The notes beneath the pieces are model-generated. The model saw only the letters and a program-made list of their open reading frames with translations. It was not told where the DNA came from and ran no database searches. Shown here one piece after another: positions 39,425-47,074 of a stretch of 64,000 bases of DNA. The translations under genes and the position numbers were made by a program. Position 1 is the stretch's first letter; each line of letters opens with the position of its first letter. The stretch comes from Nitrospira sp. (lineage in GTDB: Bacteria; Nitrospirota; Nitrospiria; Nitrospirales; Nitrospiraceae): the NCBI GenBank assembly GCA_030123605.1, contig CP126123.1, positions 3,935,237-3,999,236 on the forward strand, written 5' to 3'.

Positions 39425-40366
39425 TTAGTGCGCCGCCGTCTTGGCCTTTGCCATCATCTTGCAATAGGAGCAGGTGTCGGCGGTGGTGGGCTGTCCGCAG
39501 GAAGGACAGGGATGGAGGGTCCGTTGATCTTTTGCAGCCATGGATTCAGGCGCTGACTCCGATTTGGCTTGCTTGTCCAGGAACCCCCAGTAGAAACGCT
39601 GCTTCGTGCCGGGCGATTCCGTTTCCAGCCGATTGAGGACTTCCTTGTACAGAAGCATCTTCGAGCCTTTCGCCATGGGACATTCCTCTACGATATAGTC
39701 GATGCGATTGAGGACCGCATAGGCGGCGATTTCCCGTTCGGACAGCCGACAGAGCGGCTTCACCTTTTTGGCGAAACCCTCGACGGAGGCGGGGAGGGCC
39801 GGGCCCTGCTTGTCCAGATATTCCTCCTGCCAGTGCAAGACGTTGCCCAACAGGCGTGCCGCTTCATCATCGAGGTTGTGGCCGGTAGCCATCACGTCGT
39901 AGTCGTGCTCCACCGCCGCACGATTGAATTGATAACGTTTGATGGTCCCGCAAGTCGAGCAGGTCGGGCGGTGAAGGACGGTGGCCAGTTCACGAATGCC
40001 TGCGCCTGCCTCCTGCTCGACCACATGGACCAGCAGGGTGGCGCCATGAGCGGCAGCGACCGTGTCGGCATAGAGCCGGACTTTTCGATGGGATTCTTCG
40101 GAGTAGCCGCCGATGCCGAGGTTCACGTACAGCGCGTCGGCGCGGTAGCCGAGTTTCAGCAGGATGTGCCAGAGGGCCAGGCTGTCCTTGCCGCCGGAGA
40201 CCGCCACGAGGATACGATCTTCCGGGGTGAACATCTTGTGCGACTTGACGGCGCGCGCCACCTGTTCGTGCACGAAGGTCGTGAAGCAGCCTTTACAAAA
40301 GGCGGCATTATGCCGGGGCAGACCGATCACGGCCTTGGTACTGGTCGGGCACTTGGTGCAATTCAT
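39425..40366 (-). CDS. TtuA-like tRNA 2-thiolation enzyme
   Basis: 313 residues. Adenylates a tRNA uridine (or cytidine) and replaces oxygen by sulfur. Order: N-terminal zinc finger CTKC...FCKGC (residues 3-26), PP-loop AVSGGKDSLALW near 54, the CSTC pair plus a distant Cys in EECPMAKGSK that bind an iron-sulfur cluster in TtuA, and a C-terminal zinc finger CPSC...CSYC. This four-part layout separates TtuA/CTU1 enzymes from TtcA and TilS. The gene just upstream in the operon encodes a ubiquitin-like carrier, the expected sulfur donor. Closest known role: 2-thiolation of T54 in thermophile tRNAs or wobble U34. Confidence 0.88.
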   Translation of the reverse strand: MNCTKCPTSTKAVIGLPRHNAAFCKGCFTTFVHEQVARAVKSHKMFTPEDRILVAVSGGKDSLALWHILLKLGYRADALYVNLGIGGYSEESHRKVRLYADTVAAAHGATLLVHVVEQEAGAGIRELATVLHRPTCSTCGTIKRYQFNRAAVEHDYDVMATGHNLDDEAARLLGNVLHWQEEYLDKQGPALPASVEGFAKKVKPLCRLSEREIAAYAVLNRIDYIVEECPMAKGSKMLLYKEVLNRLETESPGTKQRFYWGFLDKQAKSESAPESMAAKDQRTLHPCPSCGQPTTADTCSYCKMMAKAKTAAH

Positions 40367-40374
40367 AGCTTAGG

Positions 40375-40413
40375 CAATGCTGAATTGCCCGGGTCATTCA
40401 TAATTCAGAATTA
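40375..40413. repeat. AT-rich intergenic repeat copy R1
   Basis: The gap between the carrier gene and ttuA consists of GAATT/CATTC words around a CCCGGG centre (AATGCTGAATTGCCCGGG, then TCATTCATAATTCAG). It covers the last four codons and stop of the carrier gene. Related in word content to R2 and R3. Confidence 0.45.
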
Positions 40414-40613
40414 GCTCGTGCTCCCCCCGAGATCACCGGACGGATCTCGATCCGATCGGCGTCGGCCAGCATTTCATCTTCCGTCACGAGTTCGTCGCCT
40501 CGGATCACCAGATGCGCTTCGACGACCAGATTCAGTTCGCGCAGCAATTCCTTCGTGCGCTTGGGGCCCTTGATTTCGACCTGGCGAGTAGGATGGCTGA
40601 GTTGCACGATCAT
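40398..40613 (-). CDS. Ubiquitin-like sulfur carrier (ThiS/MoaD/TtuB type) with tail after Gly-Gly
   Basis: 71 residues from ATG 40613; a TTG at 40649 would add 12 residues. The protein has the beta-grasp pattern of ThiS/MoaD/TtuB: MIVQLSHPTRQVEIKG, KELLRELNLVVEAHLVIRGDELVTEDE, DADRIEIRPVISGG. The Gly63-Gly64 pair is normally the C-terminus that becomes a thiocarboxylate, but here ARANSEL follows. The carrier would need trimming, or the tail is a recent change: its last codons lie in repeat R1. Located directly before ttuA on the same strand, so it is the probable sulfur donor for tRNA thiolation. Confidence 0.82.
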   Translation of the reverse strand: MIVQLSHPTRQVEIKGPKRTKELLRELNLVVEAHLVIRGDELVTEDEMLADADRIEIRPVISGGARANSEL

Positions 40614-40680
40614 GCGGCGATGATACGGCTGACTCAGGCGAGATTGCAAACGGTTCGGGGAGGGCCTGCCGGATGAACGG

Positions 40681-41682
40681 TCAGATCACCGCGTCTCTGA
40701 GGGCCTTTGCCGCTTCTTCCGGCGAGACCGGGTTGATGTAAAACCCGGTGCCCCATTCGAATCCGGCCACCTGGGTGAGTTTCGGGATGATTTCCATGTG
40801 CCAGTGGTAAAAGTCCCCGGTCTTTTCGTGCAGCGGCGAGCTGTGCAGCATGAAGTTATAGGCCGGGCGCGCCAGCACTCTGTCCATCCGCCGCAGAGCT
40901 TCACAGAGCACCGGCGCCAGAAATTCGAATTGAGCCCGCTGGCTTTCCTCGAAATGCCCTGCATGGCGCTTGGGGAGAATCCACATTTCGAACGGGAAAC
41001 GCGGCGCATAGGGGGTGAGGCAGAGGAATTCCGGATTTTCCAACACTACACGCGTGCCCTCCGTCGATTCCTGCCGCAGGATGTCGCAGTAGATGCAGCG
41101 TTCCTTCTGTTGAAAGTGTCGGCGGCAACCGTCGATCTCGTCGAGGACGCTGGTGGGGACGACCGGCAAGGCGATGAGTTGGGAATGGCTGTGTTCCAGC
41201 GTCGCTCCCGCTGTCGCGCCGTGATTCTTAAAAATCAAAATGTACCGCAGCCGGAGGTCTTTCTTGAGATCCAGAATCCGGTCACGGTAGGCCCACAACA
41301 CGTCTTCCACCCGCTTGGCCGGCAGATCGGCGAGGCTGTCCTTATGGTTGGTGGTTTCGATGATGACTTCATGGGCGCCGATCCCGTTCATGCGGTCATA
41401 GAGGCCGTGGCCTTCCCTCCCCATGTCACCCTCTACCTGCAGGGCGGGAAACTTGTTGGGAATCACCCGCACGGTCCAATTGGGACTGTTGGGCTCCGAG
41501 GCCTGCGGACGGTAGGCGAGAATCTCCTTCGGGGTCAGCCGTTCCTGGCCCGGACAAAACGGACACATAGAGGAGGAAGGAAGCGGCAAGGACGGCTGCA
41601 ACAGGTCTTGAGGCCGTCCGCTGCGTTCGGTCGACACGATCACCCAGCGGCCGACGATCGGGTCTCTTCTCAGTTCAGGCAT
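40681..41682 (-). CDS. galT: Galactose-1-phosphate uridylyltransferase
   Basis: 333 residues from ATG 41682 with GGAG six bases ahead. Exchanges UMP between UDP-glucose and galactose-1-phosphate (Leloir pathway). Motifs: ELRRDPIVGRWVIV at the start, CPFCPG zinc site, IPNKFPAL, HEVIIET, the nucleophile region ATLEHSHSQLIALP near residue 167 (HSH instead of the HPH of E. coli GalT), and a second HIT-like half with FYHWHMEIIPKL. It is cotranscribed with the GH57 enzyme upstream, suggesting glycogen or galactoside handling. Confidence 0.93.
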   Translation of the reverse strand: MPELRRDPIVGRWVIVSTERSGRPQDLLQPSLPLPSSSMCPFCPGQERLTPKEILAYRPQASEPNSPNWTVRVIPNKFPALQVEGDMGREGHGLYDRMNGIGAHEVIIETTNHKDSLADLPAKRVEDVLWAYRDRILDLKKDLRLRYILIFKNHGATAGATLEHSHSQLIALPVVPTSVLDEIDGCRRHFQQKERCIYCDILRQESTEGTRVVLENPEFLCLTPYAPRFPFEMWILPKRHAGHFEESQRAQFEFLAPVLCEALRRMDRVLARPAYNFMLHSSPLHEKTGDFYHWHMEIIPKLTQVAGFEWGTGFYINPVSPEEAAKALRDAVI

Positions 41683-41701
41683 GTAGACTCCTGGCATTGC
41701 C

Positions 41702-41799
41702 AATGATGAATGATGAATGTCGAATGTCTAATGATAGGTTGAAACGAATGATGCGAAATTTCTCTGCAGTCATCATTCAGAACTCATCATTCGGCATTC
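41702..41799. repeat. AT-rich intergenic inverted repeat R2
   Basis: Left arm 41702-41727 (AATGATGAATGATGAATG...) and right arm 41770-41799 (TCATCATTCAGAACTCATC...) are imperfect inverted copies built of GAATGATGAAT words, with about 42 unrelated bases between. The element fills the gap between GH57 and galT, two minus-strand neighbours. Base composition is clearly more AT-rich than the flanks. Confidence 0.65.
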
Positions 41800-46959: not shown

Positions 46960-46968
46960 GTGAATGTG

Positions 46969-47074
46969 GAATTCTGAATGCTGAATTCTGAATGAACATC
47001 AAACTCCGTTTCAGAATTATCGTTCATGACGTACCGTTGTCAATTCATCATTTCTAATTCATCATTCAGCATTC
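46969..47074. repeat. AT-rich intergenic inverted repeat R3
   Basis: Left arm 46969-46996 (GAATTCTGAATG, then CTGAATTCTGAATGAA) and right arm 47043-47074 (ATTCATCATTTC, then TAATTCATCATTCAGCATTC) are imperfect inverted copies; 46 bases lie between. It fills almost the whole amgK-murU gap, ending four bases before the murU ATG. Same word family as R2. Confidence 0.68.

Follow-up and report, generated by a model that had tools for sequence, protein, structure and literature searches.

The ttuB-like gene and its neighbours

The window, a stretch of 64,000 nucleotides, belongs to a complete genome of Nitrospira type (4.32 Mb, one contig, 99.98% complete). A ttuB-like sulfur-carrier gene occupies positions 40398-40613 on the minus strand, with an ATG at 40613 and a TGA stop at 40400-40398, and its 71 codons encode the protein MIVQLSHP...EIRPVISGG-ARANSEL, in which Gly63-Gly64 is followed by ARANSEL. 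A TTG start at 40649 alters the N-terminus only, and the relatives align from the ATG. The β-grasp core, residues 1-64, ends in ...RPVISGG (40422-40613, minus strand); its two glycine codons, GGG GGA, lie at 40422-40427, and the seven tail codons at 40401-40421 are present only in this genome among 107 loci.

Profile search matched the carrier to Pfam ThiS above the gathering score (E 4.8e-6), and the solved Thermus TtuB 5ztb matched its sequence (E 2.6e-7), so that the original prediction of a TtuB/ThiS/MoaD-type carrier with seven residues after Gly-Gly was borne out. The modelled fold agreed with 5ztb_E at TM-scores of 0.82/0.89, with a confident block over residues 1-60 (pLDDT 91-96) and low values (50 and 41) for residues 61-71, where the ARANSEL tail had no structure. 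This model was built from 34 diverse sequences; 20 close relatives alone gave a poor pLDDT of 49.

A ttuA-like tRNA sulfurtransferase gene, the probable partner enzyme, starts 31 nt downstream of ttuB (39425-40366, minus strand). Its product matched 5gha with E 3.9e-76 and TtuA_LIM_N above the gathering score, and scored 265.8 bits with the NCBIfam TtuA model, under its cut-off of 450. Alignment with Thermus TtuA showed that the Fe-S cysteines (CSTCG, EECP) and the Lys after CxxC are kept. An imperfect inverted repeat with arms at 40376-40386 and 40402-40412 spans 40376-40412 between the two genes. Upstream lies a galactose-1-phosphate uridylyltransferase-like gene (40681-41703, minus strand; open reading frame and profile match), with no evident functional link to ttuB. 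Since the genome also holds an MnmA gene for U34, the ttuB/ttuA pair probably serves U54/T54 of tRNA rather than U34, judging by the TtuA family.

The carrier thus has the ThiS/MoaD β-grasp fold closest to TtuB, a conserved Gly-Gly closing the domain, a TtuA partner with Fe-S cysteines and, in the same genome, full-length E1 proteins. Because ARANSEL follows Gly-Gly where a TtuB would be encoded to end, we treat it as a TtuB homolog whose gene encodes a precursor, and not as a canonical TtuB; it is a real, functional-looking one. Bacterial sulfur carriers are usually described with a Gly-Gly terminus, whereas in eukaryotes ubiquitin and many ubiquitin-like proteins are synthesised in precursor form.

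Origin of the tail and its turnover across Nitrospirota

The last tail codons and the stop codon fall within an AT-rich gene-end repeat, GCTAATTCTGAATTATGA (40398-40415, minus strand), identified by repeat search and by alignment with the relative G002, in agreement with the earlier suggestion that such a repeat encodes part of the tail. The 17-mer TCATAATTCAGAATTAG at 40398-40414 has a chance expectation of 0.04 per window when up to three mismatches are allowed. Genome-wide, three additional copies were found with up to two mismatches and none for the reversed control, and these copies sit inside degenerate 14-nt (2 x 7) repeats. A tandem-repeat scan of the window did not flag the tail region. 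Elsewhere in the window, behind another gene, 2.4 tandem copies of TGAATGCGGAATTC at 46961-46994 resemble the 7/14-nt gene-end repeats at the carrier tail.

The Ser-Gly-Gly codons TCG GGG GGA contain a stretch of six G (40423-40428), and the tail is read in a frame that depends on this homopolymer. When aligned with G002, the gene shows a one-base gap exactly at this run, and GCTAATTCTGAATTATGA after the gap is common to both; the G002 carrier reads ISGG-SLG and then stops in frame at the TAA of the same repeat. With one extra G the window's gene would likewise read ISGG-STS followed by the repeat TAA, and the exact tail could then be a frameshift product, whether by a real slip or by sequencing error. 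We consider this possible but somewhat doubtful, as GGA GCA ahead of the stop also occurs in the relatives L009 and L027 (GGAGCATAG), which fits the assembled frame, and the genome is a single contig of 99.98% completeness. Even then a three-residue tail would remain, and this explanation concerns length only and is compatible with trimming: with either G count, the encoded carrier would extend past Gly-Gly. The length of exactly seven comes from the AT-rich gene-end repeat, with a slip in the G run, real or technical, as a possible contributor.

Comparison with relatives, which the original prediction had called for, showed that Gly-Gly is invariant in all 107 Nitrospira-lineage loci, 90 of them distinct, and in 54/54 further phylum loci, mostly from other Nitrospirota genera and families. 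Residues follow Gly-Gly in 41 of the 90 distinct loci, and the other 49 stop right there. Tails of one residue occur in 14 distinct loci, of two in seven, of three in one and of 8 to 25 in 18; the seven-residue tail is confined to the window's genome. Among the 54 further loci, 36 have residues after Gly-Gly, namely 1 to 38 residues in 33 and TtuA directly in three. The nearest sampled relative, G021, has 98% of TtuB+TtuA columns in common with the window's genome; a single Val follows Gly-Gly in its carrier (GG-V). The carrier of N. defluvii continues after ...RPVIS as GG-SV. Mapped on a tree of 50 TtuB+TtuA sequences, presence or absence of a tail must have switched at least 14 times, and exact tail length at least 28 times. 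Neither the length nor the sequence of the tails is conserved between loci: six tails of 15 residues differed by 39 synonymous versus 67 non-synonymous codon changes, against 295 versus 121 in the cores of the same carriers. From these sequences, the tails appear to change fast while Gly-Gly stays fixed. The tail as an exception, as first supposed, did not survive this comparison, since tails are common on TtuB across Nitrospirota and also occur on the ThiS and MoaD of these genomes; the single tail of the window's carrier is ordinary, and the phylum-wide pattern is more interesting. A degenerate second ttuB-like copy was seen at L210 (G312:C1:3649467-3649619); it ends EIRPVISGG plus stop, and its N-terminal half has largely diverged.

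An encoded tail blocks C-terminal adenylation, and an inactive carrier, the product of a decaying gene with a lost stop, had accordingly been raised as an alternative to trimming. Fixed Gly-Gly despite tail turnover is not expected of carriers that have lost function. Gly-Gly is kept in all tailed relatives across the phylum, the core of the window's carrier shares 98% identity with the core found in the nearest relative, and ttuA is intact. On this conservation we rejected the inactive-gene reading, which we regard as very improbable.

Two sources of tails are visible in the sequences, overlap with the next gene and gene-end repeats. Among 109 loci with ttuA just downstream (related loci, some genomes being counted twice), ttuB and ttuA overlap as ATGA in 33/76 tailed carriers and in 0/33 tail-less ones; with loci related in this way, the p-value computed from these counts should not be read literally. 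TtuB and TtuA are fused in three Nitrospirota genomes, all from a single family (L188, 539-1669 (+); L189; L190): the junction reads ...PVISGG-MKCxVC..., and the ttuA ATG continues the frame immediately behind the codon for the second Gly. In L192, a relative belonging to that family, the carrier reads GG-FL before overlapping ttuA as ATGA. In L191, 100 masked bases cover the junction of a possible further fusion. The open-access literature yielded no description of TtuB-TtuA fusions or of tailed TtuB (subscription journals lay outside its scope). Such fusions and the long tails could suggest that the tail is retained and serves a purpose, such as that of a linker or a regulatory extension, with a different activation chemistry. 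This too seems highly improbable, for the tail sequences are unconserved and track repeats or gene overlaps, tail-less forms are common in close relatives, and E1 genes are present. A conserved tail joined to a different chemistry, the pattern named beforehand as speaking against the prediction, is not what the relatives show, their tails being unconserved.

Other carriers, E1 enzymes and the JAMM protease

Five ThiS-family domains are encoded in the window's genome, and four of the five carry residues after GG or GGG. A CysO-like carrier ends in AIAGG with nothing after it; the others are the TtuB-like carrier (ISGG-ARANSEL), a carrier before cysM (MGGG-R), ThiS (IGGG-AE) and MoaD, which continues as FAGG-NREERS-MoaE. 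For the cysM-linked carrier, tail R overlaps with the GTG at which cysM starts, and the ThiS tail AE (GCG GAG) holds GGAG ahead of the thiG ATG. In seven of seven genus genomes, ThiS has GGG and then AE or AR (L046:4421-4654(+); L143, L146, L150, L151, L153, L154), and where the codons are GCG GAG they contain the likely Shine-Dalgarno sequence of thiG. The moaD stop has been lost, with in-frame reading into moaE (L047:4037-4852(-), G000:C1:1433028-1433267(-) onward): the codon is TAG in relatives such as G021 and GAG in the window's genome. Of the seven genus genomes compared, the window's alone has this MoaD-MoaE fusion, and profile search recovered both domains in the fusion protein.

Two full-length ThiF-family E1 proteins are encoded in the genome, both in one cluster with the order carrier, cysM, E1, threonine-synthase-like, CysO-like, NIL, E1 and JAMM. 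The JAMM metalloprotease matched Prok-JAB with E 7.1e-18, its open reading frame has the intact E...HxHx7SxxD motif (HSHPKDPARPSHTD), and its gene begins one base past the stop of the second E1. The protease, encoded at G000:C1:1134739-1135248, adjoins the CysO-like carrier and the E1 genes, and not ttuB: JAMM is located at C1:1134757 and ttuB at C1:3975637, some 1.5 Mb or more apart on the chromosome.

The proposal that a JAMM enzyme trims the carrier stood in so far as a JAMM gene with an intact motif occurs in a genome whose carrier has residues after Gly-Gly. It gained nothing from the distribution of the protease: JAMM was detected in 37/37 phylum genomes tested, tailed and tail-less alike, and its presence does not discriminate. 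All three genomes with a TtuB-TtuA fusion have it. Within the genus it was found in 26/29 genomes, a count that sets aside weak matches of frames of about 240-280 residues, present in nearly all and taken to be RadC-like. The other three are G002, G009 and G015. G002 is 66% complete, and its cluster is interrupted by a contig end. G015 and G009 were rejected as controls for JAMM absence; they have no full E1 either, though ThiS and MoaD are kept (and TtuB in G015), which makes it most likely that these assemblies lack the cluster as a whole.

No association between JAMM and tails was shown across genomes, and in most of the MAGs with no match the cluster is truncated or unassembled. JAMM was not matched in five tailed MAGs (G038, G039, G042, G045, G047): a contig end interrupts the cluster in G039 and G042, and the cluster was not found in G038 and G047. 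G045 is an unexplained case, as its contig extends past NIL with neither E1 nor JAMM. The CysO-like carrier of G045 (L134:1885-2172(+)) ends AIAGG-APCRM and overlaps the NIL gene, and its TtuB is also tailed. The absent correlation, and JAMM missing from its usual place in G045 despite two tailed carriers, could point to another protease or a carboxypeptidase that removes the tail and leaves the carrier functional. We think this unlikely, given that prokaryotic Gly-Gly trimming is known from JAMM enzymes (PMC8832034, PMC6043591) and that JAMM adjoins the E1 genes here; the protease that acts on MoaX was not named (PMC4326299).

Several reports bear on JAMM processing. JAMM enzymes cleave precursors after Gly-Gly, including those of the SAMPs and of Caldiarchaeum ubiquitin, the latter extended by nine residues (PMC6043591), DRJAMM cleaves a MoaD-MoaE fusion (PMC8832034), and MoaX requires cleavage at its Gly-Gly (PMC4326299). 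Thermus uses a single E1 for TtuB, MoaD and ThiS, and its tRNA thiouridine falls by about half when a JAMM is deleted (PMC3980101), which makes a shared E1-plus-JAMM module a reasonable reading. Judging by genome content, JAMM processing of the window's carrier is plausible, the presence of the protease being permissive rather than proof.

Proposed maturation and known systems

Considering the above results, we favor as probable a functional carrier that is made as a precursor and then trimmed, most likely by the JAMM of the genome. In the scheme that we infer, a 71-residue precursor would be synthesised, and a protease, most likely the JAMM of the CysO-like cluster, would cut after Gly64 and release ARANSEL. 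One of the two ThiF/MoeB-type E1 enzymes from the JAMM cluster would then adenylate the freed Gly64, leading to the thiocarboxylate, and the neighbouring TtuA would hand the sulfur on, U54/T54 of tRNA being the most likely site. With the tail discarded, as proposed, there would be little constraint on where the stop lies, and tail length would be set by gene-end repeats or by overlap with the start of ttuA. More tentatively, with somewhat less confidence than in trimming of this one carrier, JAMM may be a general maturase in Nitrospirota, where most carriers (TtuB, ThiS, MoaD and the cysM-linked one), with tails up to fused TtuA or MoaE, would be cut at Gly-Gly before E1 activation, freeing the stop to evolve with gene overlaps and repeats.

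A phylum in which TtuB, ThiS and MoaD often carry tails, of many kinds and with no apparent harm, could be a natural setting for asking whether bacterial JAMMs are primarily precursor-processing enzymes. It is also a warning for annotation, as residues after Gly-Gly are no reason to call carriers defective or fusions misassembled.

The closest known system is TtuB/TtuA of Thermus thermophilus (5ztb, 5gha), which resembles the window's pair in fold, sequence, the adjacent TtuA and the same ISGG domain ending. Thermus TtuB ends at Gly-Gly, whereas the window's carrier is encoded with seven more residues; the genus Nitrospira is largely mesophilic, in contrast to Thermus. QbsE/QbsD and HcyS/HcyD are systems in which a carrier has one or two residues after Gly-Gly, a JAMM enzyme removes them, and carrier and protease share one gene cluster; unlike these, ttuB lies apart from the JAMM gene. 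Caldiarchaeum pre-ubiquitin and the SAMP precursors with Rpn11/JAMM are similar in combining a β-grasp protein, a short extension after Gly-Gly and a genomic JAMM, but their cut was demonstrated by mass spectrometry, whereas a cut in Nitrospira would follow by analogy and its extension varies between close relatives (PMC6043591). MoaD-MoaE with DRJAMM (PMC8832034) and MoaX (PMC4326299) likewise have Gly-Gly inside a longer chain, and the likeness to MoaD-MoaE/DRJAMM extends to the MoaD-MoaE fusion of the window's genome and the TtuB-TtuA fusion of related genomes. The tail of the window's carrier differs from those of MoaD-MoaE and MoaX in being a short peptide with no sign of a function of its own.
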